In this document: positions 2,594 to 19,503 of the stretch, one piece after another | Layout of the letters: the number at the start of each line of letters is the position of its first letter | Numbering within the stretch: position 1 is the stretch's first letter | IMG/VR virus record: IMGVR_UViG_3300017781_004896 | Location: 1-20,084 of that record | DNA length: 20,084 nucleotides | Reading direction: 5' to 3' (one strand) | Source of the DNA: a virus | Program-made: the position numbers and the translations under genes | The notes under the pieces: generated by a model | Seen by the model: only the letters and a program-made list of their open reading frames with translations | Database searches by the model: none | Told to the model about the DNA's origin: nothing

Positions 2594-2929
2594 ATGAAAC
2601 CATTCGAAATCACGGACTCAGCAAAAGCACAGATCGAAAGATTGCTTGAAAAGAACCCTGGCAAGTATGCGGTAAGTCTAGCAGTGCTAGGCGGAGGATG
2701 TGCAGGATTCAAATACGAGTGGGATTTCGCCGATACCAAAGAAAGCATAGCAGGAGGTGATCATGTGGAAGACTGGCACACAGGCAGGTTCGTTGTTGAT
2801 GAAACATCTTTACTGTATGTGGTAGGTACCAAGATTGATTGGGTGGAGGAGACCTTTGGGTCACAGTTCGAGATATCAAATCCCAACAGTTCGAGCTCCT
2901 GTGGTTGCGGAGAGTCATTTGGCATATAA
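2594..2929 (+). CDS. A-type iron-sulfur cluster carrier (IscA/HesB/ErpA family)
   Basis: A 111-aa cytoplasmic protein, the usual length for A-type carriers, which accept an Fe-S cluster (or iron) and pass it to apo-enzymes. All three ligand cysteines are present: Cys36 in LGGGCAGFKY and Cys103 and Cys105 in the C-terminal CGCG, matching the E. coli IscA pattern of one central Cys plus C-x-C near the end. Residues 5-20 carry the family's N-terminal 'ITDSAKAQIERLLEK' helix. HesB-like genes are known auxiliary genes of marine T4-like phages. AAGGA at 2578-2582 is 11 bases from the ATG, a long spacing. The stop overlaps the next gene by one base (TAATG). It may serve host Fe-S enzymes during infection; the target is unknown. 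iscA, erpA and sufA cannot be told apart from sequence alone. Confidence 0.9.
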   Translation: MKPFEITDSAKAQIERLLEKNPGKYAVSLAVLGGGCAGFKYEWDFADTKESIAGGDHVEDWHTGRFVVDETSLLYVVGTKIDWVEETFGSQFEISNPNSSSSCGCGESFGI

Positions 2930-3976: not shown

Positions 3977-4918
3977 ATGGCACGATTAACGATAGACACA
4001 GGAACACTGGGAAATCCGGCAACGGGAGATACATTGCGGACAGCGATGACCAAAGCCAACACGAATTTCGCAGAACTTTACACTGATCTAGCCGCTACAA
4101 CATCATCAAACGGGAACCTTACAAATGCAGATACCAACGGTGATGTGAAAATATTTGCAAATGGAACAGGTATCATTGAGATTGATAGGTTATCAATAAA
4201 CAACACAGCAATAACTTCACTAGATACTAATGCAGATATTACACTGACACCCAACGGAACGGGAAACGTCAAATTAGGCAACTTCACTTTCAACGCTGAC
4301 CAAACAGTGGGAGCGGGCCAAGACAACTATGTGATGACTTATGATCACAGCACACAGACAATAGGCCTAGAGGCCTCGGCAGGTGGAGCCTCAGGTATCA
4401 CATTCACAGGTGATGATTCCGCCGGCATCGCCATAGCAGACGGCGGACAACTTTACATACAGGGCGGAACAGGCATTACCACTTCTGCCAACTCGGATGG
4501 CACAATCACGATCACGGCATCAGGTGGATCTGGGCTCCAGTCAAGGACCACCAAGGCAGGATCCGCATCAATACAGGATGGCAGTACATCGGACATAGAC
4601 ATAACGGGATTCATTGGCTACGCTCTCTACAAGGTACAGACATCACACGCGGCAAGGGTCATAGTGTACACCAGTAACCAGGACAGAGACGCAGATGCCT
4701 CAAGGGCAGAAGGTGTTGACCCAACCGCTGACGCAGGCGTGATAGCGGAAGTGATCACAACGGGTGCTGAAACGGTATTGATATCGCCTGGCACGATCGG
4801 ATACAATGATGATTCCACTGTGACCACCAACGTACCAATCAGGGTCACTAACAAGATCGGTGACTCGGCATCCACATCAATCACGGTAACACTACATCTC
4901 GTACAACTGGAGTCTTAA
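3977..4918 (+). CDS. Tail-fibre-like/adhesin protein, GNPATGD type (313 aa)
   Basis: Virion adhesin-like protein. Residues 5-38 form the N-terminal module shared by five genes here (IDTGTLGNPATGDTLRTAM, then KANTNFAELY), probably the attachment end. Two copies of the S/T-N-x-D...G-T-G beta motif follow (TNGDVKIFANGTG and TNADITLTPNGTG). Next is a Gly/Ser/Thr-rich stretch with GGTGITTS and GGSGLQS. A C-terminal ~125-residue domain starts near SRTTKAGSASIQDG and includes IGYALYKVQTSHAARVIVY. It looks like a compact beta-sandwich tip and occurs nowhere else in the window. Cysteine-free. No Shine-Dalgarno; only GGGTAA precedes the start, and an ATAAATA box ends 13 bases upstream. Which organelle it belongs to (long fibre, short fibre or neck whisker) cannot be told. 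Confidence 0.8.
   Translation: MARLTIDTGTLGNPATGDTLRTAMTKANTNFAELYTDLAATTSSNGNLTNADTNGDVKIFANGTGIIEIDRLSINNTAITSLDTNADITLTPNGTGNVKLGNFTFNADQTVGAGQDNYVMTYDHSTQTIGLEASAGGASGITFTGDDSAGIAIADGGQLYIQGGTGITTSANSDGTITITASGGSGLQSRTTKAGSASIQDGSTSDIDITGFIGYALYKVQTSHAARVIVYTSNQDRDADASRAEGVDPTADAGVIAEVITTGAETVLISPGTIGYNDDSTVTTNVPIRVTNKIGDSASTSITVTLHLVQLES
4909..4912 (+). promoter_or_regulatory. Shine-Dalgarno supporting a GTG start
   Basis: GGAG inside the end of the fibre gene, seven bases before the GTG at 4920. It supports GTG as the true start of the protease gene, one base after the preceding TAA. Confidence 0.6.
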
Positions 4919-4919
4919 G

Positions 4920-6686
4920 GTGGAACTGTTTCAGGTCACACTTAAAAAGGGCGAAGACTCAAAGGCATTCTACGATGACATGGAGACACCAGGTGGTGCT
5001 TTACATATTCCAGATCGTAAAATAGAGTGCGGAGCAAGACGACCAACTTCAAGAACCACAGGCTATATGCTTACCTTAGAAGAAGCACAAGAAGTAAGTT
5101 ATGATGACAGAGTAGAAGTTGTTGTTCCACAAAGCGTGTTAGACAGACAGACTGTGGTTAACGATGCTACATACAACGGTAGATTTACCAAAAGCACAAG
5201 TCCAACCGGATCAACTTTTACAAAAGCCAACGGTAGTACCGGAGTAACATACACTAATAATGATCACTTCAACTGGGGGATACTGAGACACATTGAAAGC
5301 ACCAACAGATCAGGTTGGGGAAACAATGCTGGAAGTTCTTCTGGTAGGCGTGTTGATGATACTGTAACATATTCAGCAAGCGGCAAGAATGTAGATATCG
5401 TCATTGTAGAAAATGACACATTAAGTGATCACGCAGAATATTCAAGCAGATTAGTAGACTACAATTGGGGACAACACTACAACACGATCACAGGTGGCAC
5501 AAACTACACCTACAGCAACGCAGATGCTCGTGATAACTTTAGTGCAGAAGATAACCATCCAACAGCAGTGGCCGCTTATGCGGCAGGTAAAAGATTTGGA
5601 CTTGCCAAAGATGCCAATGTGTATATGTTAGACCTAACCTACGAGAGAAGTAAATCAGGTGGCGATAGCACTAGCAGAGCTTTCGCCTACATTAGAGAAT
5701 TTCACGCAAACAAATCTATCAACCCAGCAACAGGTAGAAAAAATCCTACCATTGTGAATGTGAGTTTGGGCACGATCAATACTTATTCAGGTGCCAGTGT
5801 AGCACACTTCCAAGGCGCGACATTAGACAAAGGCAACGGCAGTACATTCCTTACTGATGCTGAACTGTTGGCTCGCGGAGTATACAAGAACACTGGTAAA
5901 TCGTGGACTACGTTCACTAGCAATACCAACTTCCAAGTAAACAGTCCTTCACCTGACAGTGATTTAGTAGATGCTATAGCAGAAGGCGTTATTGTGGTTA
6001 CTTCGGCTGGCAACAACAACAGATACACTGATGTATCAGGTGGCGACAACTATGACAACTATATGGTTACTGGCGCCGCATATGCGAACAGGAACTATTT
6101 GTTCAATGGCTACTATCCATTTAGAGATTATTACATGCGTGGCGCTACCTTCTCATTCAACGGAGCAATAAACGTAGGCGCTCTAAGCAATGATACAGAT
6201 GAAGGTAAAGCAGATTTTAGCGACTGGGGTCCGGGCATAGATGTATATGCCGCTGGAGAGACTGTAATGGGTGCTATGATGAAAGACGAAATTGCCTACG
6301 GTAATCCCTATTATGGACAGTTAAGCAACACACCGAAATGGGATACAATGGGTGTGCAAAACGGAACAAGTTACTCTTCACCTTTGATAGCAGGTATGTT
6401 GGCTTGTTTAGCAGAAGTATATCCCACACTCACACAAGCACAAGCAAGAACATATTTACAAAACAATGCTGTCACAGGATTGATGGCAGACACGGAAGAC
6501 GCAATAAATGTAGATGTAAGCACAAGAGTGAGCATAGACGGTGCTGACATAGACAGAATAGCACTGTGGAAGAATCACAGGGCCACGTCAGGTAACATGG
6601 CGTTCAACACCTACAACAAAGACGTGAACAGCCGTCCCACAACAGGTGCGATATACCCTAGGCCTAGAATCAGACGTAGAGGATAA
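4920..6686 (+). CDS. Subtilisin-family (S8) serine peptidase with I9-like propeptide
   Basis: A 588-aa subtilase. Residues 1-72 resemble the I9 inhibitor/chaperone propeptide (FQVTLKKGEDSKAF near the start, GYMLTLEEAQEV, then RVEVVVPQ before a linker). Catalytic parts: His213 in DNHPTAVAAYAAG (the HGTHVAG equivalent), oxyanion Asn365 in VTSAGNNN, and nucleophile Ser484 in NGTSYSSPLIAG. The Asp strand is VDIVIVENDTLSDHAEY: a gapless match to VAVIDSGIDSSHPDL places Glu164 at the Asp position, with Asp166 two residues later. The chain ends with an Arg/Pro-rich tail (RPRIRRRG). There is no secretion signal, so it probably acts in the cell on assembling virions or travels in the particle. It sits between two fibre genes and starts at GTG right after the first, so it is likely part of the late structural operon. 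Possible roles: maturing adhesins or degrading host envelope proteins. Confidence 0.88.
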   Translation: MELFQVTLKKGEDSKAFYDDMETPGGALHIPDRKIECGARRPTSRTTGYMLTLEEAQEVSYDDRVEVVVPQSVLDRQTVVNDATYNGRFTKSTSPTGSTFTKANGSTGVTYTNNDHFNWGILRHIESTNRSGWGNNAGSSSGRRVDDTVTYSASGKNVDIVIVENDTLSDHAEYSSRLVDYNWGQHYNTITGGTNYTYSNADARDNFSAEDNHPTAVAAYAAGKRFGLAKDANVYMLDLTYERSKSGGDSTSRAFAYIREFHANKSINPATGRKNPTIVNVSLGTINTYSGASVAHFQGATLDKGNGSTFLTDAELLARGVYKNTGKSWTTFTSNTNFQVNSPSPDSDLVDAIAEGVIVVTSAGNNNRYTDVSGGDNYDNYMVTGAAYANRNYLFNGYYPFRDYYMRGATFSFNGAINVGALSNDTDEGKADFSDWGPGIDVYAAGETVMGAMMKDEIAYGNPYYGQLSNTPKWDTMGVQNGTSYSSPLIAGMLACLAEVYPTLTQAQARTYLQNNAVTGLMADTEDAINVDVSTRVSIDGADIDRIALWKNHRATSGNMAFNTYNKDVNSRPTTGAIYPRPRIRRRG

Positions 6687-6705: not shown

Positions 6706-8355
6706 ATGGCGAGAAATAACATAGATATAGGAGCACTGGGGAATCCGGCCACGGGCGATACTTTACGTACGGCCATGATCAAGATCAACAACAATTTCGA
6801 AGAACTCTACATAGGAAATGCCGCGGATGGCCAACTGACTACCTCAGTCACAAACGGTGACATATCTATACAGCCAAACGGCACAGGTACTGTCGAGATA
6901 GACGCATTATCTGTGAACAGTGACAACATAACTTCACTGACCACAAACTCGTCTGTGACCATAACCGGTAACGGCACGGCAGGTGTGGACATAGAAGGTA
7001 TTAGTGTAAATGGCACAACGATTACAAGCTCAGACAGTAGCACAATCAACATCAACGAGAATCTCATAGTTGATGGCACAGGGGACTTCTCTGGCACCCT
7101 GTCTGTAACAGGAGCGTCGACATTGACCGCAGGAGCGACGATAGATGGCATCAGCATCACGGACAACACGATCACAACATCAGCATCAAACGCCAACCTA
7201 GAACTCACAGCGTCAGGCACTGGTTCTGTCAGCATCGATGGCATACAGATTTCAGGAACAGAAATCAGTTCGAGTGACTCAACACAGATCACAATAAAAG
7301 AAAATTTACACGTGACTGGGAACATCACGGGCACGATTGACGCTGACAACTCAACAGTTTCAAACCTAGAAGTGGACAACTTCAAGGCCGCTTCAATTGT
7401 CACAGAAGCGGAAGGTATTGGAAGCAACGACAATGACACAACAATTCCAACAAGTGCCGCTGTCAAAGACTATGTGGACAACAACGCAGGTGGCACAACA
7501 GGTGACCTGGCCATAACAGGATCAACCATATCAACACCTTCAAACGCAGACCTAACACTGAGCCCAGGTGGAACAGGTAGTGTACAGACACCGGGAGTCA
7601 CGATAACAGACAACAAGATCACATCAAATAGATCAAATGACAACTTAGAGTTAAACGCATCAGGCACAGGAACGATAGTGCTAGAGAATTTAAAAGTGGG
7701 CACGGGTGCCACAGTGACGACGATACTTGACGAAGACAACATGTCCTCTGACAGTGCCACGGCATTGGCTACACAACAGAGCATAAAAGCATACGTGGAT
7801 TCACAGGCCGGCACAGGTGGCATGACATTCTCAGGCAACACAATGTCTGGATCAAGTAACGCAGACATAGAGATCACACCGGGAGGCACAGGAGCAGTAG
7901 TATTAGGTGATGCCATCAGGATCAGAGACAACCACCTAGAAGGCACAAGATCAAACGAAGACGTCATCATTGATCCCGCGGGAACAGGGCAAGTCGTTGC
8001 CAACGCCGCTTTCAAATTCAACGCAGGTTACGTTGAGAATATAAACACACTGACTTCAAGTTCGACCATAACAGTCAACTGTGCATTGGCCAGCATACAC
8101 AAGGTCACATTGGCCACATCAACGGAATTCAACATCACCAACCTACCAACAGGTGGCACGGTCACATTGATAATAACACAGGATGGTTCAGGATCAAGAA
8201 CAGCAACATTTGGAACGGATGGCTCAAGTGCCGTGAAGTTCCCATCCAACAGTAGCACACTTTCGACCGGTGCCGCTGACATAGATGTTGTCACAATCAT
8301 CAACGACGGAACCAACTTCCTGGGCAACATTGCCAAGGACTACAGGTCATCATAG
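6706..8355 (+). CDS. Tail-fibre-like/adhesin protein, GNPATGD type (549 aa)
   Basis: The second protein with the GNPATGDTLRTAM form of the N-terminal module (residues ~5-38), closest to the protein at 3977. The stalk has seven S/T-N-x-D/N...G-T-G motifs, the most in the window, for example SNADLTLSPGGTGSV and SNEDVIIDPAGTGQV. It also has two ENL-x-V segments (STININENLIVDGT and STQITIKENLHVTG) and two short helical-looking linkers (SAAVKDYVDNN and ATQQSIKAYVDSQ). The C-terminal ~110 residues, from LTSSSTITVNCALASIHKV to FLGNIAKDYRSS, form a distinct beta-rich cap, a plausible receptor-binding tip. No Shine-Dalgarno; the ATAAATA box lies just upstream. The long minus-strand open frame across 6807-7466 is a shadow of the repeats. 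Confidence 0.8.
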   Translation: MARNNIDIGALGNPATGDTLRTAMIKINNNFEELYIGNAADGQLTTSVTNGDISIQPNGTGTVEIDALSVNSDNITSLTTNSSVTITGNGTAGVDIEGISVNGTTITSSDSSTININENLIVDGTGDFSGTLSVTGASTLTAGATIDGISITDNTITTSASNANLELTASGTGSVSIDGIQISGTEISSSDSTQITIKENLHVTGNITGTIDADNSTVSNLEVDNFKAASIVTEAEGIGSNDNDTTIPTSAAVKDYVDNNAGGTTGDLAITGSTISTPSNADLTLSPGGTGSVQTPGVTITDNKITSNRSNDNLELNASGTGTIVLENLKVGTGATVTTILDEDNMSSDSATALATQQSIKAYVDSQAGTGGMTFSGNTMSGSSNADIEITPGGTGAVVLGDAIRIRDNHLEGTRSNEDVIIDPAGTGQVVANAAFKFNAGYVENINTLTSSSTITVNCALASIHKVTLATSTEFNITNLPTGGTVTLIITQDGSGSRTATFGTDGSSAVKFPSNSSTLSTGAADIDVVTIINDGTNFLGNIAKDYRSS

Positions 8356-9243: not shown

Positions 9244-12200
9244 ATGGCACAAGAACTAATAAACATAGGCGCACAGGCCAATGATGGGACAGGTGATACT
9301 ATCAGGAACGCCGGCCGTAAGATCAACGCTAACTTCACAGAATTTTTCGCGTTGCCTGCCGTAGCATCTGATATAAGATTCGAGCAAAACAACATCGTAT
9401 CAAAATCTTCTAACGCCGACATAGTGCTCAAGCCTTCAGGAACAGGAAACATAGTATTCCCCGCCCTCACTGTTGAAGACAACAACATCAAAATGACCAG
9501 GTCAAATGATGAATTGAAAATCACAGCCAATGGATCTGGTAAGGTTGTAATAGACGGTATTGGATTCGCAGGCACATCTATTGTGGGCACAGACTCCACA
9601 ACCATCAACATAAATGAAAACTTGATAGTTGAAGGCACACTGAATGCAGGTGCTCCTACCCTATCGTCTGCGGTCACGATCAATTCCACACTGGACGTCA
9701 CAGGTGCAACCACACTGTCTACATTGACGGTTTCGGGAGCCTCATCTTTCGTGGGTACTACGACCATTGATAATCTTACTTTTAACGACAACATAATAGG
9801 TACGAGTTCAAATGCGGATTTGATCCTATCACCAGGCGGCACAGGTGTGGTAAGCGTTTCCAACCTCACAATAGACTCAAGCATAAATTTAACCGATAAC
9901 GTGATCAAGGTCACACGTTCCAACGATGACTTTGTTCTTTCAGCAAATGGCACAGGTTCAGTCCAAATGTCAAAAGTTAACATCAGCGAAGGCACTGTGA
10001 ACAACACAGTGTTAGGGGCAACGACACCAGGGGCAGGAACTTTCACTACATTAGCATTCTCGGGCACATCAATCGTGGCGGACGGTGTCACCATAACTGA
10101 TAACACGGTGACTGCAAATAGGTCAAATGATAATCTGGAACTTGAGGCCAGTGGATCAGGATACGTTAGGATCAATGATTTATTTAACTTCCCCAACTCA
10201 GACGGTAACACAGGACAACTACTCCGGACAGACGGAAGCGGTCAGTTGTCGTGGGTCACTGCTCCACTATTGCTTGGACAGTCGGATATACAAGACGCAA
10301 GAAACACCATTGGGTTTTCATCGTCAACACAGTTAAATGCTAACGAGGCCGTAGGTGCACACGAAAACATCGTTGCAGGCAGTGACAGTGTGGTGGACGC
10401 ATTCGCCCAGTCCCAGTATGACAGTGCTTGGTACTTGATGTTGCAGAGGTACGATTCCGCTGACAGTTCGATACAGTACGCAGGCTTCAAAACGTCAGTG
10501 GCACAAGGAACAGCAAATGGAAGCACATTCGAGGCCGACAACTTAACGTCACAGATCATAAAGACAAATGGTGATGATGGAATCATGCAAGTATCTTCAG
10601 ACGTAAGAGGTGGAGATTCAACGGTCAGGCTCCTAGGACAGGCCGGCCTACTGGCAGACAGTACCACTTCGGCGTTATTCAACTCAGTGAATTTTTTCAG
10701 AATCGGTCTAGGAGATAATGACTCGTCAGGATTCACAGACGGGAATGTGGCGACAAAAGTCACAGCAGACCTTGACAGTGCGACTGCAACACTTGACACC
10801 TTTGCCCACGCAAGTTTCAGGGGAGCGAAATATTATGTTTCGGTAAACAACACAACCACCAATGAAGTCATGAACGCTGAAGTCATCGTGGTTCATGACG
10901 GATCAGATGCTACCATACAGACATACAACCAGTTCTCAACCAACACGGGCAACACTGCACTGGCAACCTTTACCGCAGACATAAGTGGCAGTGACGTAAG
11001 GTTAAGAGGTGCCAACGGGACCGCTGGAACATGTAGAGTCACAATGTACAGGATACTTTTGGCCGACAATGAGTCAGGTTCGAGTGGCACGTACCAGAGT
11101 GTCATTGCGGCACAGACGGTCAGCAACACCGCACTCACCACAATTGACACAGACACGTTCAGGGGTACAGCACATCCAGACATGAGTTCTCAGAAAATTG
11201 CTAATCAATTTGCAAAAACAAGTTTTGACAGTGTGTTCTATCACATGGTGCAAAAAGATGTAACGAACAGCGAATTTGTCATGAACAAGTTGAGTTTGAA
11301 TCATGGCATCAGTGCCGATGGTAGCACAGAAGTGGCAGGGGTCACAGACAGTCATATCCTAAAATCAGGAGAGATGAACGATATCACGGCCTTTGATGCA
11401 GGCATCAGCGGATCAAATATAAATTTACTAGCAACAGGCCAGAGCGATGGCTCAACCACAGTCCAGAACTCATTGTCCTACTATGGCATCGGACTTGGTC
11501 CAAACACAACAACTGCCTCATCAGGAAACATAGGCACACACGCAGGTGTTACCACCGGAGGCAACTATGAAACAGTGATAGATCATGTAATAGCAGAAGG
11601 TACAACACAGGCAAGTTTTGCCGCTGAAAGAACAGCCGCAGAATTTACTGCGAGTCAATTCAACGGTGCATTGTATCATGTTGTTACCAAGGATACGACC
11701 AACGGCAGTTTTGAAACACAGAAAATTTCAGTATTGCACAATTTCAACGATGGTTTCCTTACGTCATCAGCAGTGACTAGAACAGATAGCGGTGACGATC
11801 ATCCAACATTCAACGCCGACATGGTCACAGCAGACGACAGTGCATCCAAGATAAGATTAAGAATGACAGACGGTGATGGTTCATCTGTCACACCAGCAAA
11901 CACAATGGGCTACTACAGGATAGGAATCGGTGACGATGACTCCACAGGATATGTGGGCGAACTAGGGCTAGTTCATGACATCATGCATGTGTCAATCATA
12001 GACAGCACCGTGGTAACCCTTGATTCGTTTACTAAGGCTCCGCACGCCGCGGCAAAATATTTTATAAATGTGAGAAATCAATCAACTGGTGAAACCAGCA
12101 ACATAGAATGTTTGATCACACACGACAACACCAATGCATACATAACATCATACAACGAGCACTTCTCAGGCAACAACAGCCTCATCACATTGACCGCAGA

Positions 12201-13881
12201 CATAAGTGGTACAAGTGTCAGGTTGCGAGGTTCTGCAACGTCAGGCGCCAGCACAAAGGTAGTTGTAAACAGGATAGTGGCATTCGCTGACACAGAATCA
12301 GACGAGGCAACCACAGACAGCACAAGGAAAGTGATAGGTAACGTCACGACATCTAGTACAGCAACAACTTTTGACACATTCCAATCCAGCGACACGGATG
12401 CTGTACATTATGTGGTGTGCGGACAGAACGGGTCAGATGAGAAATTTATATGTGAGGCCACTGTTGTCACAGATGGCACAGGAGTTTTCATATCACAAGG
12501 TCCTAACATAAGCACAAAAGGCACAGACATGTTGGAACTTACCGCTACTATTTCAGCAGGCACGGTCAGTGTCAAAGCAAGTTCCACTTCAGGCGCTTCA
12601 ACGGCGGTGAGTGCTTATGCAGTAAGGTTGAAAGCACCTTTAGACAATTCGATTGTGCTGGACAGTTGGGCCATCGCTGATGACAGAGGTGCCAAGTACT
12701 ACATTTCCGCGGATGACACTATAAACGGACATGTCACAAACATGGAAGCCATGGTGGTACATGACGGCACCAATGCATTTATCACAACGTACGACCAGCA
12801 TAACAGCCATAACAGTTTGGTCTCATTCACCGCAGATATCAGTGATGGACAGTTGAGATTGCTGGCGACACCAACCACAGCAGATGTCAAGTTGAAATTC
12901 TACAGGATAAGATTAGCCGACAACGAATCAAACAGCACAGGAACTGACTTCAACACAGTGGGTGCAACCACAATATCAAGTTCGGCGACTGCAATAGATA
13001 CTTTCGTAGATACACAATTCAAAGGTGCTCATTATGTGATTATCGCTCGTAACGCCACTGAAGGGACTTCCGAAATAACGGAAGCCACAGTCTTGACCAA
13101 TGGCACCACTGCTTTTGTGGCACAGGGTGCTAACGTTTCAAGCAAGGCATCATCGATGTTGACTCTTACCGCGGCACATGATGGATCAAGCACTGTGACT
13201 CTGAGTGCGGCATCCAGTGCAGGTGGGAGCACCACTGTCAACGCACACAGGATTCACCTCAATGTGGAAGATGGAACCTCATATGATGTTCTTGACTCGT
13301 TTGGGCACGGAACATATAAATTGGCGAACTATATTGTGGTAGGAAAAAATGCCGCAAACGAATCGCAGATAGCAGAACTAATGGTTGCCACAAATGGCAC
13401 GGCACCATTTATTTTACAGACAGGTGCAAATATCAGCACACACTCAGAGTCCGATGCATTAATGAATTTCACAGTCGCACACAACGGCAGTAACGTAGAA
13501 TTACGTGCAACAAACAACCAAGAATTAACCGACACCACAGTCAACATGTACAGATTGCATCTTAACAGGCTTGAGGGGTCACCTAGTTCTGTAGCCACTC
13601 TCGACACATTTGACAAGACTGAGTTCAGGAGTGCCAAGTACACCGTTTCGATCAGTGACCCGGCCAGTGGTTCACTTGGATTATACGAAACTCTAGACAT
13701 TAATGTGGTACACGACGGCACTACTGTCTATTTGACCACGTTTGGCAGGACCACTAACCACACTACAGATCTAGTGGAATTCACTGCTGACATCAGTGGT
13801 GATAACGTGAGGTTGCGAGGCACGATAAGTAATACAAACACACACACGGTCACAGTGGTTAGAAGGGTAATGAAAGTTTAA
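9244..13881 (+). CDS. Giant multi-domain tail-fibre-like adhesin (1545 aa)
   Basis: The largest gene here. Residues 4-36 are the ANDGTGD form of the shared N-terminal module. Residues ~38-320 form a stalk with five S/T-N-x-D...G-T-G motifs, a STININENLIVEGT segment, and the NNTVLGATTPGAGTFTTL module common in phage fibres. Residues ~375-1545 are about ten tandem divergent ~95-130 aa domains. Their hallmarks are a 'D-T/S-F ... AKYY' start, 'VVHDGT.A.I.TY' in the middle, 'FTADISG..VRLRG' next and 'YRI.LAD' at the end. Three subtypes occur (see the repeat entry). No signal peptide or membrane helix. The length suggests a long fibre or appendage. There is no Shine-Dalgarno, but an ATAAATA-like box lies nine bases upstream. 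The minus-strand frame at 9228-10211 is a shadow. Confidence 0.8.
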   Translation: MAQELINIGAQANDGTGDTIRNAGRKINANFTEFFALPAVASDIRFEQNNIVSKSSNADIVLKPSGTGNIVFPALTVEDNNIKMTRSNDELKITANGSGKVVIDGIGFAGTSIVGTDSTTININENLIVEGTLNAGAPTLSSAVTINSTLDVTGATTLSTLTVSGASSFVGTTTIDNLTFNDNIIGTSSNADLILSPGGTGVVSVSNLTIDSSINLTDNVIKVTRSNDDFVLSANGTGSVQMSKVNISEGTVNNTVLGATTPGAGTFTTLAFSGTSIVADGVTITDNTVTANRSNDNLELEASGSGYVRINDLFNFPNSDGNTGQLLRTDGSGQLSWVTAPLLLGQSDIQDARNTIGFSSSTQLNANEAVGAHENIVAGSDSVVDAFAQSQYDSAWYLMLQRYDSADSSIQYAGFKTSVAQGTANGSTFEADNLTSQIIKTNGDDGIMQVSSDVRGGDSTVRLLGQAGLLADSTTSALFNSVNFFRIGLGDNDSSGFTDGNVATKVTADLDSATATLDTFAHASFRGAKYYVSVNNTTTNEVMNAEVIVVHDGSDATIQTYNQFSTNTGNTALATFTADISGSDVRLRGANGTAGTCRVTMYRILLADNESGSSGTYQSVIAAQTVSNTALTTIDTDTFRGTAHPDMSSQKIANQFAKTSFDSVFYHMVQKDVTNSEFVMNKLSLNHGISADGSTEVAGVTDSHILKSGEMNDITAFDAGISGSNINLLATGQSDGSTTVQNSLSYYGIGLGPNTTTASSGNIGTHAGVTTGGNYETVIDHVIAEGTTQASFAAERTAAEFTASQFNGALYHVVTKDTTNGSFETQKISVLHNFNDGFLTSSAVTRTDSGDDHPTFNADMVTADDSASKIRLRMTDGDGSSVTPANTMGYYRIGIGDDDSTGYVGELGLVHDIMHVSIIDSTVVTLDSFTKAPHAAAKYFINVRNQSTGETSNIECLITHDNTNAYITSYNEHFSGNNSLITLTADISGTSVRLRGSATSGASTKVVVNRIVAFADTESDEATTDSTRKVIGNVTTSSTATTFDTFQSSDTDAVHYVVCGQNGSDEKFICEATVVTDGTGVFISQGPNISTKGTDMLELTATISAGTVSVKASSTSGASTAVSAYAVRLKAPLDNSIVLDSWAIADDRGAKYYISADDTINGHVTNMEAMVVHDGTNAFITTYDQHNSHNSLVSFTADISDGQLRLLATPTTADVKLKFYRIRLADNESNSTGTDFNTVGATTISSSATAIDTFVDTQFKGAHYVIIARNATEGTSEITEATVLTNGTTAFVAQGANVSSKASSMLTLTAAHDGSSTVTLSAASSAGGSTTVNAHRIHLNVEDGTSYDVLDSFGHGTYKLANYIVVGKNAANESQIAELMVATNGTAPFILQTGANISTHSESDALMNFTVAHNGSNVELRATNNQELTDTTVNMYRLHLNRLEGSPSSVATLDTFDKTEFRSAKYTVSISDPASGSLGLYETLDINVVHDGTTVYLTTFGRTTNHTTDLVEFTADISGDNVRLRGTISNTNTHTVTVVRRVMKV
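10366..13881 (+). repeat. Ten tandem divergent domain repeats in the 1545-aa adhesin
   Basis: Approximate units and my subtype labels: A 10366-10743; B1 10744-11070; A 11157-11535; A 11540-11960; B1 11970-12310; B2 12330-12640; B1 12641-12930; B2 12950-13270; B2 13275-13575; B1 13590-13881. Type A has a 'FYHMVQKD' or similar strand and ends 'YYRIGIGDDDS'. Type B1 has 'AKYYIS', 'VVHDGTNAFITTY' and 'FTADISG..VRL'. Type B2 has 'HYVV..GQN', 'TNGT.AFV.QGANVSS' and ends 'AHRIHL'. A further B1 copy closes the next protein (about 14970-15247). Boundaries were judged by eye. Confidence 0.7.
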
Positions 13882-13882
13882 C

Positions 13883-15247
13883 ATGGCACAGCAGACGCTT
13901 AACATAGGAACAAACGCAAACGACGGGACAGGCGATAATCTAAGAACCGCCATGACCAAGGTGAATGAGAATTTCACTGAAGTTTATTCTGCTCCAGGCT
14001 TTAGTTTAGATGCAATCACAATCTCCGGCAATGAAATAAGTGCCGTTAGATCCAACGATGACCTTGTTTTCAACCCAGCGGGCACTGGTGTAGTCCAATT
14101 CCCTGCCATAAAGATCGACGACAACAATATCGTAGGAACAAGATCAAATGAGGACATCAACCTTCTACCTAGCGGGACAGGTTCGGTGGTGTTTGGGGCA
14201 ATCAAAATACAAGGAACCTCTTTTAGTTCAGATGATTCCACAACAATCAACATCAACGATGGACTTGTTGTAGATGGAACAATTAATGTCACGGGCACAT
14301 CAACACTGACAGGTGCGGCAGACCTAGGTTCCACACTAGCAGTTCCGTCAGGACTAACAACTCTTTCAACTTTGGCTGTTACCAGCACCACAAGTTTGGT
14401 AGGTACAACAACCATTGACAATTTAACATTCAACGACAACATAATAGGAACTAGTTCAAACGCCGACCTAAACTTGACTCCGGGAGGCACAGGCACTGTT
14501 ACCATAGCAAATTTAACCGTTGACTCAAACATCAACATCACAGACAACGAGATCACAACCACGCAGTCAAACTCGGATCTTGTAATTGCCCCAGCAGGCA
14601 CAGGATCTGTTTCAATTGCCAAAGTAGACATCGATAGCGGAACCATAGACAACACAACCATTGGAGGAGCAACTCCAGCCGCTGGAACTTTTACATCGTT
14701 GGCCACTACTGCATCTTTGGCCATAGATGGCGTTACGATTTCAGACAACACAGTTTCAACCAATTCGTCAAATGCCAATCTAGAGTTGACAGGTAATGGA
14801 TCTGGTGGTGTAACAATAAGTGGTTTCACTATGCCAACTTCAGACGGTGCCAGTGGACAATTTATAACAACAAACGGACTTGGAGTGCTTTCATTCGCCA
14901 CTGCTGGGGCCACCCTAAGTAATTCAACTATTGCAGATGCCACAACAACAGTTGCCACTTCATCGACTAGTGTGCTGAACTCGTTCGACAAGACAGTTGC
15001 CAGAAGTGCGAAATACTACATCTCTGCCACAGACGCCACGAACAGCAGATTTGAATTTGTGGAGGCCAATGTGGTACACGATGGTACAAACGCTTTCATC
15101 TCAACGTTCGGTTCGGTTAGTGACCACACAGTAGGCCTAGCGACCTACACAGTTGGTATTAGTGGTGACGATGTGCAAGTCAAAGTTACAAATATCACTG
15201 ACGACAGTATTGTATTCAAATTCCAACGTATAGCAATGAACATATAA
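13883..15247 (+). CDS. Tail-fibre-like/adhesin protein, ANDGTGD type (454 aa)
   Basis: Looks like a short sister of the 1545-aa adhesin. It starts with the shared module (LNIGTNANDGTGDNLRTAM, then KVNENFTEVY), carries five S/T-N-x-D...G-T-G motifs, STININDGLVVDGTINVTG, VGTTTIDNLTFNDNIIGTSS and the NTTIGGATPAAGTFTSL module. It ends in a single B1-type tip domain (residues ~363-454: SAKYYISATDATN, VVHDGTNAFISTFG, FKFQRIAMNI). The stalk matches the 1545-aa protein block by block, so the two probably arose by duplication and differ mainly in tip number. Only one base separates the upstream stop from this ATG and no good ribosome site is seen, which suggests translational coupling. Confidence 0.8.
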   Translation: MAQQTLNIGTNANDGTGDNLRTAMTKVNENFTEVYSAPGFSLDAITISGNEISAVRSNDDLVFNPAGTGVVQFPAIKIDDNNIVGTRSNEDINLLPSGTGSVVFGAIKIQGTSFSSDDSTTININDGLVVDGTINVTGTSTLTGAADLGSTLAVPSGLTTLSTLAVTSTTSLVGTTTIDNLTFNDNIIGTSSNADLNLTPGGTGTVTIANLTVDSNINITDNEITTTQSNSDLVIAPAGTGSVSIAKVDIDSGTIDNTTIGGATPAAGTFTSLATTASLAIDGVTISDNTVSTNSSNANLELTGNGSGGVTISGFTMPTSDGASGQFITTNGLGVLSFATAGATLSNSTIADATTTVATSSTSVLNSFDKTVARSAKYYISATDATNSRFEFVEANVVHDGTNAFISTFGSVSDHTVGLATYTVGISGDDVQVKVTNITDDSIVFKFQRIAMNI

Positions 15248-16956: not shown

Positions 16957-16961
16957 TTGCC

Positions 16962-16969
16962 AATAAATA
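16962..16969 (+). promoter_or_regulatory. Late-promoter-like box AATAAATA
   Basis: One base from TATAAATA, located between the small gene and the 837-aa gene, ending 20 bases before the ATG at 16990. Confidence 0.5.
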
Positions 16970-16976
16970 CCCGTGT

Positions 16977-16982
16977 AAGGAG
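16977..16982 (+). promoter_or_regulatory. Shine-Dalgarno deciding the ATG at 16990
   Basis: AAGGAG seven bases before the ATG at 16990. It rules against the upstream in-frame TTG at 16957, which would also lie before the promoter box. Confidence 0.75.
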
Positions 16983-16989
16983 TAAAGTA

Positions 16990-19503
16990 ATGGCAACACC
17001 AGTGTGGACTACCACAGCAGGTAAAATTGCAACTATAGATGAACAAGCGTCATTTTCGCTACAACTTGAAGCGAATACCAGCGATTCAACGGCCATAACT
17101 TACTCCGTGATAGCAGGAAGCCTACCCGCAGGTATGCAGGTTACTACAGATGGCTTACTGACAGGTACTCCGGCTGAGGTTGCCAAAAGAACTCTTTACA
17201 CCTTCGTCGTGCGAGCCACGGCCGGTACCGCTATCACAGACAGAACTTTCAGTCTAGACGTTCAGGGCTCAGACGCACCTGTATTCACAACGGCATCAGG
17301 ACAACTACAACTGGATGATAGTACCAGTGTTGGACTTTATTGGGTCATAGATGGTTCCAGTGTGTCACTGCAGATGCAGGCCACAGACACAGACACCAGG
17401 GCAGGTCAGAGTTTGGTTTACGAGATCGTACAAGGATCACTACCACCCGGAGTTACCATGAGCAAGTCAGGATTGATTTCAGGAACAGTTCAACTCACGG
17501 ATGATCAAAGATATGGAGAGCGTGGTGGATATGATGATGGTAATCCAGAGGATCAATGGGATGGTACATTTGATAGAACAGTCAGATCTAAAAGTATAAG
17601 CAAGAATTTTGATTTCATAATAAGGGTATCAGACGGAACCAGTTTCGTAGAACAGAACAACAACATATTTGTTTACTCCGCGGACTTCTGGAGAGTATCA
17701 AACACAGAGATCACTATTGACGCAACAGAAATACAAAACACGCCACTGACCATGGACCTCAGTGCCAACAGGAGACCTGTTTTCAGGACAGGTTCAGATT
17801 TGGGCACGTTCAGACACGACAACGCACTTGTGGTGAAAATCGATGTGGAGGACTTCGATCCGTTGCAAGGCGATCTGGAGTACTCGATACAATCAGGATC
17901 TTTGCCCTCAGGTGTCGCCATCGACGCTGACACGGGAGAGCTTTACGGACAACTGGCAAGACAATCAGCGGTTGAGACAAACTATGCCTTCACCGTGAGG
18001 GCCAACAGAGTTGTAAGCACAGACGTAAACGTGTTCACGGACCAGTCCTTCACAATGAAAGTTATTGGCGAGATAGACATAGGCATAGAATTCACAACAC
18101 CGACTGTGGTGGGAACTCTTACAGCAGACATACCAAGTCTGCTATCAATAGAAGCAGTTACAGAAGAGGCCAATCGTGTGTTGAGTTATTCTGTCACGGC
18201 AGGATCTTTGCCAGCAGGAATTACATTATCAGAACAAGGAAACCTCATAGGCACAATAGATCCGAGTGAATTCACAGATTCCACGAGAGCATTTACGTTT
18301 ACGGTCACAGTGAGTGACCAATACCAATCAGCGGCCACGGCAAAAGAATTCACATTGAACATCGATATCCCATACACTCAAACCGAGTATGGCAACATGT
18401 CGGGCCATTCAACATCTTTCATTGATCAAAATATATTTTATAACATAGCACAAGATCCAAACATCAATTCTGTAGATAATATATTCAGACCCGAAGATGA
18501 CAATTTCGGGATGAAGGTCAAACCTGAAATGCTTATGATGTCGGGACTTGAAGCACAGACGTTGACTGCTTTTCAACAGCAGATGGAACAGAACCATGCT
18601 CCCAAGACCCTGTACTTTGGAGACATAAAGACAGCAGTGGCCAAAGAAGGCACTGATACAAAATACGAAGTTGTCTATATAGAAATCAAAGATCATCTTG
18701 TCAACAAGGATGGCCAATCTGTGTCCAGTTCGATTAATTTACGTGATGCTGTGTCAAAACCTTTACTAGGACCAAGGGCGTCTAGCATGAACGCCACAGC
18801 AGATTACGTAGATTATGAAGTGACCACGGACGGAGGACTATCGTTCAGCACAGCAGGATCTAAAGTAAGATATGCAAACCAATTGAGTGCTGACCTAGGA
18901 TTCATAGAAACAGTGTATCCAAATGCAGTAGCCAACATGAGGTCAAGAATGAAAAGCCTAGGACACAAGGAATGGGATTATCTACCATTGTGGATGAAGA
19001 CAACACAAGCAGGCGATCTTGCACCGTTAGGATATGTGACGGCAGTACCCATCTGTTACTGCAAACCAGGAACATCAGCATTGGTCAAAAAAAGAATTGA
19101 GGACAAAGCACTAAACTTCAAGAATATTGCATTCACCATAGACAGATATGTGGTCAACAAAAGCAAAGTTGCCACGGAAACGTTCACAGCGGATGGTACG
19201 ACAACCAGTTTCGTTGTTGATGAACTGGTGCACGAGGAAGATGTATTGGTCAAAGAAGGAACAAGCAGGGTGTTCGTGGGCAAAGGTGTAACAGCCGACA
19301 ACAACATAAAGCCAACATATCTCACAGCAGATGGCACTATTAGATCCGCAGATCATGAGTTAGGCATTACACTTTCTCACAACACAACCACAATGAAAAC
19401 AACGATCACTTTTACCAAAGAAATACCACAAGCAGGCACAATAATCAAGGTGGAGAGATTGAACGATAAATATCTTAAATTTAGAGATAAAGGAATACAA
19501 TAA
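16990..19503 (+). CDS. Virion structural protein with four He_PIG/Ig-like repeats (837 aa)
   Basis: The N-terminal ~460 residues hold four Ig-like domains of the He_PIG type, each with the hallmark 'Y.I..GSLP.G....... G.L.GT': near residues 39 (AGSLPAGMQVTTDGLLTGTP), 144 (QGSLPPGVTMSKSGLISGTV), 298 (SGSLPSGVAIDADTGELYGQ) and 399 (AGSLPAGITLSEQGNLIGTI). The C-terminal ~375 residues, from TEYGNMSGHSTSF, are a different, mixed-composition domain with KEWDYLPLWMKTTQAGDLAP and AVPICYCKPGTSALVKKRIE. I associate this with large structural proteins of marine T4-like phages, from memory. It ends in a small beta module (TFTADGTTTSFVVDELVHEE). Probable role: surface-exposed virion or baseplate-linked adhesin. 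The stop overlaps the next start by one base (TAATG). Confidence 0.78.
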   Translation: MATPVWTTTAGKIATIDEQASFSLQLEANTSDSTAITYSVIAGSLPAGMQVTTDGLLTGTPAEVAKRTLYTFVVRATAGTAITDRTFSLDVQGSDAPVFTTASGQLQLDDSTSVGLYWVIDGSSVSLQMQATDTDTRAGQSLVYEIVQGSLPPGVTMSKSGLISGTVQLTDDQRYGERGGYDDGNPEDQWDGTFDRTVRSKSISKNFDFIIRVSDGTSFVEQNNNIFVYSADFWRVSNTEITIDATEIQNTPLTMDLSANRRPVFRTGSDLGTFRHDNALVVKIDVEDFDPLQGDLEYSIQSGSLPSGVAIDADTGELYGQLARQSAVETNYAFTVRANRVVSTDVNVFTDQSFTMKVIGEIDIGIEFTTPTVVGTLTADIPSLLSIEAVTEEANRVLSYSVTAGSLPAGITLSEQGNLIGTIDPSEFTDSTRAFTFTVTVSDQYQSAATAKEFTLNIDIPYTQTEYGNMSGHSTSFIDQNIFYNIAQDPNINSVDNIFRPEDDNFGMKVKPEMLMMSGLEAQTLTAFQQQMEQNHAPKTLYFGDIKTAVAKEGTDTKYEVVYIEIKDHLVNKDGQSVSSSINLRDAVSKPLLGPRASSMNATADYVDYEVTTDGGLSFSTAGSKVRYANQLSADLGFIETVYPNAVANMRSRMKSLGHKEWDYLPLWMKTTQAGDLAPLGYVTAVPICYCKPGTSALVKKRIEDKALNFKNIAFTIDRYVVNKSKVATETFTADGTTTSFVVDELVHEEDVLVKEGTSRVFVGKGVTADNNIKPTYLTADGTIRSADHELGITLSHNTTTMKTTITFTKEIPQAGTIIKVERLNDKYLKFRDKGIQ
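19465..19472 (+). promoter_or_regulatory. Late-promoter-like box GATAAATA inside the preceding gene
   Basis: GATAAATA, one base from consensus, in the last codons of the 837-aa gene. AAAGGA (19489-19494) and the ATG at 19503 follow in sensible order. It overlaps coding sequence, so chance is more likely than for the intergenic boxes. Confidence 0.4.

Follow-up and report, generated by a model that had tools for sequence, protein, structure and literature searches.

The window, by which we mean the whole 20,084-nucleotide stretch analyzed, is a 20-kb fragment of an uncultured marine bacterial virus (IMG/VR record IMGVR_UViG_3300017781_004896), and its open reading frame at 9244-13881 encodes a 1545-aa protein in which ten homologous units fill aa 382-1545 (10387-13878; Table 1). 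The N-terminal motif of this protein also begins the fiber genes at 3977, 6706, 13883 and 15307. Of these, the gene at 3977-4918 passes Pfam T4_gp9_10_N (PF07880; 27.1 bits, cut-off 25), the gene at 13883-15247 falls under this cut-off with 20.6 bits, and phrog_677 ("baseplate wedge tail fiber protein connector") matches those at 3977, 13883 and 15307. The 1545-aa protein itself has no match to this gp9/10-type N-terminal domain at E ≤ 1, and its N-terminal motif resembles that of the gp9/10-type paralogs by eye.

Several other genes surround the array. At 4920-6686 the fiber cluster contains a gene whose product belongs to the subtilase family (Pfam Peptidase_S8, 3.9e-24) and is related to proteases from the baseplate clusters of cyanophages, and in cyanophage S-SSM7 a subtilase also adjoins a fiber gene that ends in a single unit of the type we call T below. 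The fiber paralog at 6706-8355 contains stem repeats of the same type as the 1545-aa protein and no A, B or T unit, and the gene at 16957-19503 encodes an 848-aa protein with putative Ig (He_PIG) repeats; pelagiphages and two jumbo phages, Atu_ph07 and Phosso (annotated protease), have relatives that match parts of this protein. Upstream of the fiber cluster are genes for a QueD-like 6-carboxytetrahydropterin synthase, with about 50% identity to phage homologs, and for an IscA-like Fe-S carrier, the latter recognized by eye only. The T4-type DNA polymerase encoded on a sister contig has its nearest relatives in the Rhizobiaceae jumbo phages Phosso and Atu_ph07 (46-50%), and this kinship makes a T4-related, possibly alphaproteobacterial phage the likely source of the window.

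Table 1. Features of the nested fiber array and its surroundings, with positions numbered from the first letter of the window.
Feature	Coordinates	Strand	Evidence
Attachment segment at the N-terminus (MAQELINIGAQANDGTGDTIRNAGRKINANFTEFF) and stem composed of short 'SNaDl.l.psGTG.v' repeats	9244..10386	+	
U1, type A, outer triad	10387..10785	+	BLASTP, tree, type HMMs
U2, type B1, outer triad	10786..11136	+	BLASTP, tree, type HMMs
U3, type A, middle triad	11137..11571	+	BLASTP, tree, type HMMs
U4, type A, inner triad	11572..12009	+	BLASTP, tree, type HMMs, AF2 model
U5, type B1, inner triad	12010..12363	+	BLASTP, tree, type HMMs, AF2 model
U6, type B2, inner triad	12364..12651	+	BLASTP, tree, type HMMs, AF2 model
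U7, type B1, middle triad	12652..12987	+	BLASTP, tree, type HMMs
U8, type B2, middle triad	12988..13284	+	BLASTP, tree, type HMMs
U9, type B2, outer triad	13285..13593	+	BLASTP, tree, type HMMs
U10, type T, C-terminal tip, clade of single-copy tips	13594..13878	+	BLASTP, trees
Single T tip ending the neighboring fiber gene 13883-15247	14969..15244	+	BLASTP
QueD-like and IscA-like genes	26-475 and 2594-2929		

The ten units and their boundaries had been proposed in a first-pass annotation made from the sequence alone, and both were upheld by all-against-all BLASTP, in which matches between units lay far above chance, with E as low as 5e-30. For example, U2 and U7 are 46% identical (E 5e-30), U6 and U8 are 41% identical (E 2e-21), and U3 and U4 are 33% identical (E 2e-19). 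The extra copy that the same annotation had placed at 14970-15247 also proved to be homologous, with 43% identity to U10 (E 2e-21). Our FastTree of 441 units recovered an A clade containing U1, U3 and U4 (support 0.99), a B1 clade containing U2, U5 and U7 (support 0.98) and a B2 clade containing U6, U8 and U9 (support 0.995), and placed U10 with single-copy tips, including the neighboring copy, and not with B1 (support 0.84). An IQ-TREE ML tree of 149 units, built without bootstraps (the clade support values given are those of FastTree only), returned A, B1 and B2 as exact clades (39/39 units each) and grouped T with the cyanophage tips (32/32). By these assignments the units fall into four types, and the window order is A-B1-A-A-B1-B2-B1-B2-B2-T. 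Three subtypes in the order A-B1-A-A-B1-B2-B1-B2-B2-B1 had been read by eye; A, B1, B2 and the first nine letters stand, but a fourth type is also present, and the reading of U10 as B1 is ruled out, since it groups with single-copy tips in both trees. U10 ends no more than 2-3 residues from the protein terminus, as in all complete T-bearing arrays.

Window copies of one type are 24-47% identical to each other, and a unit for the most part groups with the units that occupy its own position in other phages. The dN/dS is about 0.05-0.22 in each of the ten units, with no positive selection on average in any of them. This combination of high divergence and low dN/dS indicates an old array maintained by purifying selection, in line with the initial view of the copies as diverged; recent slippage or gene conversion is ruled out, since the units mostly cluster by position across phages.

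Comparing unit number and order among relatives, as had been proposed, we collected about 210 related IMG/VR loci, a sample consisting of relatives of the query, and typed their units with four type-specific HMMs whose training set was a subset of these units and which gave a margin over the second-best type of at least 18 bits for every unit. All 89 complete arrays, of which 59 are distinct at 90% identity, contain A, B1 and B2 in equal number, with sizes of 3, 4, 7, 10, 13 and 16 units. The order A-B1-B2, without T, is present in 22 of these arrays, A-B1-B2-T in 24, the 7-unit A-B1-A-B1-B2-B2-T in 17, and the 10-unit order of the window in 20; there are four 13-unit arrays, and a second 10-unit order, A-A-B1-A-B1-B2-B2-B1-B2-T, and a 16-unit array occur only in L189 and L192, respectively. 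A further 78 complete proteins contain one T only, which, together with the lone copies at the C-terminus in the cyanophage records that we examined, agrees with the earlier remark that one tip per fiber is usual.

All 89 words parse as nested A..B1..B2 triads, with T added except in the 3-unit form, and in explicit parses each triad encloses at most one other triad, located in the gap between A and B1 or in the gap between B1 and B2. In the window, U4-U5-U6 lies inside U3/U7-U8, which lies inside U1-U2/U9. No tandem A-B1-B2-A-B1-B2 array and no unbalanced or intermediate array is present among the 89 complete arrays. There are 1680 possible words in which each letter is used three times; 12 of them nest, and only 4 do so without tandem, although the figure of 4/1680 is not a p-value, since the arrays are related. 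Linkers are near constant by junction (2-6 residues from B1 to B2, 8-17 from A to B1 and 26-35 from A to A), which argues that no domain is being missed. Five loci (L091, L092, L103, L105 and L106) have another N-terminus (MADKTPVRVVFNSSNVATGMAEFQSGE where read), a lone A-B1-B2 C-terminus, and no T.

Repeat proteins normally grow by tandem duplication, whereas the fiber family sampled here grows only by balanced triplets inserted inside existing triplets. Positions 1-7 of the 7-unit array L066 match window units U1, U2, U3, U7, U8, U9 and U10 at 46-76% identity; in such 7-unit relatives U3 is contiguous with the U7-U8 orthologs, and U4-U5-U6 has no close counterpart in L066. On this alignment, the window array corresponds to a 7-unit array into one triad of which a contiguous A-B1-B2 triad has been inserted. 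In the trees, U4, U5 and U6 have as sisters the three units by which the 13-unit arrays are longer, so these three make up a further triad, which nesting has split. Independent insertion events are few, with arrays present in few lineages.

Similarity between arrays also follows triad borders in several cases. Despite their different outer architectures, L189 and L192 have innermost triads that share 83/93/96% identity, and the L192 paralogs 6A and 7B1 are 72 and 83% identical to the same innermost L189 units; the remaining same-type pairs between these two arrays are at most 69% identical and mostly below 65%, with T at 42%. Over U4-U6 the window has raised third-position identity to L009, L010 and L012, and this identity drops at the U6/U7 border from about 70% to about 40%. 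Our claim, on sequence comparison, that triads move or recombine as blocks is confined to L189 and L192, the L066 comparison, and these third-position cases over U4-U6. The idea that two arrays always resemble each other most in their innermost triads proved only partly true: innermost triads are the best pair in 48 of 211 array pairs against 27 expected, and both-outermost triads are best in 93 of 211. In L013, third-position identity to the window rises from about 50% to 83-100% from the end of U8 through T (aa 1308-1545 equivalents), and this C-terminal end appears to be a recent exchange.

AlphaFold2 prediction for U4-U5-U6 with 18 orthologs gave three separate beta-sandwich domains (mean pLDDT 78, pTM 0.82), and prediction for the full ten-unit array gave ten separate domains (mean pLDDT 81, with a moderate pTM of 0.53), each unit having about 7-8 strands, and with low-confidence stretches between some domains. 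Both models bear out the discrete domains expected from the first-pass annotation, and a continuous beta-helix tailspike is ruled out, since AlphaFold2 gives separate domains. In a Foldseek search of the PDB with the predicted units, the best matches, at fold level only, were 9f4a (E 1.4e-4) and 1qex (E 3.5e-4), the gp9-like protein of Klebsiella phage KP1 and gp9 of T4; the array has no sequence match in the PDB. T4 gp9 is a trimer (PMC3004832), and its C-terminal domain trimerizes and holds the long tail fiber (PMC10253068). The terms "adhesin" and "multi-ligand binding", which had been applied to the array, name candidate functions at most, as the nearest solved fold, the gp9 C-terminal domain, docks another fiber, and no unit is under positive selection on average.

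We consider it fairly probable that the 1545-aa protein is a baseplate-attached fiber, the distal part of which consists of three nested A-B1-B2 triads and then the tip T, with each triad forming a putative single-chain pseudo-trimeric head. The simplest account of the strict balance and nesting is a structural one. A, B1 and B2 would be three diverged copies of a domain that was once homotrimeric and that now makes one head in one chain, such that a single-chain pseudo-trimeric head would replace the homotrimer of gp9-type C-terminal domains. With a stem that we assume to be trimeric from other fibers, the chain would leave the stem, run out through the nested heads and come back, T would end beside the stem, and three T domains from three chains would form an ordinary homotrimeric tip. 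A new head would arise by insertion of a triad into the gap of an existing triad, and insertion into these gaps would mean that triads nest and are never in tandem; the nesting would be required because the chain must return to the stem, with T ending beside the T domains of the other chains. Each triad would pack as a single-chain pseudo-trimer, including those triads that are non-contiguous in the chain, and the stand-alone A-B1-B2 C-termini of other fibers fit this reading. That the family as a whole follows a nested (context-free) grammar, in which pseudo-trimeric heads are inserted within one another, multivalency is gained by three-domain cassettes, and the chain returns to form the tip, is a proposal that we rate at slightly better than even. 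Its use is most likely that of a multi-headed receptor-binding or fiber-docking device at the baseplate.

The units could instead be independent binding domains, like beads on a string, with the balanced nested order being the frozen result of a few chance duplications. The several long linkers of 23-35 residues before internal A units, the low-confidence stretches between some domains in the models, and the small number of array lineages, and so of independent events, would all fit such an arrangement. We nevertheless regard it as improbable, since at least six architectures (4, 7, two kinds of 10, 13 and 16 units) keep both the 1:1:1 balance and the nesting with no intermediate, and since the pTM values of 0.82 for a triad and 0.53 for ten domains are, by our own estimate, higher than expected for independent beads. 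Growth by a two-domain unit, as originally suggested from the partial alternation of B1 and B2, is less probable still. In this account B1-B2 pairs and A domains were duplicated separately, and two such duplications would explain the 13-unit arrays, which differ from 10-unit arrays by a non-adjacent A and a B1-B2 pair. What we found instead is that arrays differ by one A, one B1 and one B2: none of the 89 has a lone additional A or a surplus B1-B2 pair, the step from 7 to 10 units is one contiguous triad (U4-U6), and the 13-unit extras, being sister to U4, U5 and U6 respectively, amount to one triad. The alternation of B1 and B2 is a by-product of the nesting.

A different function for the heads, which we consider possible but rather unlikely, is that they serve as sockets for the N-termini of other trimeric fibers, as the gp9 C-terminal domain does for gp34, so that the protein would act as a scaffold for branching instead of binding a receptor. 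This is favored by the fold match to gp9, whose C-terminal domain attaches the long tail fiber (PMC10253068, PMC3004832), by the several fiber genes that adjoin the gene for the 1545-aa protein, and by the low dN/dS in all units; against it, single T copies are at the very C-terminus of fibers, where binding tips are often found, and no partner fiber was identified. If the pseudo-trimer reading is correct, a homotrimeric tip would have become a single-chain hetero-trimer and would then have been multiplied into a multi-headed fiber, and these proteins would be natural designs for multivalent heads. The prediction is that arrays have 3n(+1) domains in nested order.

To our knowledge, no phage fiber or repeat protein with a nested-triad architecture has been described, and the open-access literature that we searched contained nothing similar to nested or pseudo-trimeric fibers. 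A tblastn search of 50,697 phage records with the full array as query gave no match, Pfam gave no match above cut-off for the array, and PHROGs gave weak matches only (phrog_5639, E 4e-4). In the named phage genomes that we examined, the domain occurs once, at the extreme C-terminus of fiber-like proteins. For example, the cyanophage fibers S-SM2 SSM2_107, S-SRM01 PQC13_gp333, S-SSM7 SSSM7_233 and C48C1 WJE88081 belong to the same family, as type T, and have exactly one copy at the extreme C-terminus without A-B1-B2 triads, whereas the window protein has nine further units.

Two viral proteins match U4-U6 by predicted structure, namely A0A8S0I641 and the Synechococcus phage S-SKS1 protein M4QPH9 (SWZG_00164, 1062 aa, annotated as a baseplate wedge subunit; L211:20098-23286). 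The match has a TM of 0.74 and extends over 388-395 columns, which takes in all three domains, although the sequence similarity of the S-SKS1 protein is marginal (best type HMM 20.9 bits) and it is not recognized as A/B1/B2. The S-SKS1 protein appears, by predicted structure, to hold the same three-domain arrangement, and a giant wedge-initiator protein of phage Bellamy is a weaker structural match. With the full-array model, the strong S-SKS1 match was not reproduced (TMq 0.17), and searching BFVD for the fold of the full array produced no whole-chain match that was informative.

Weaker single-domain fold matches were found to gp42 of Klebsiella phage Kp9 (7xy1), the tailspike of Acinetobacter phage P1 (6e1r) and Fri1 gp49 (6c72), and the C-terminus of RaK2 gp529 has been reported to match T4 gp9 (PMC10253068). 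Unlike the array, the tailspike or fiber C-terminal domains of Kp9, P1, Fri1 and RaK2 are present in one copy per chain. Among the closest known systems are the best fold matches, T4 gp9 and the KP1 gp9-like protein, which like the array are baseplate-attached, and with which the neighboring fiber genes in the window share the gp9/10-type N-terminal segment. Whereas each gp9 chain contributes a single C-terminal domain to a homotrimeric socket, the window protein has ten diverged copies, of four types, nested in one chain.
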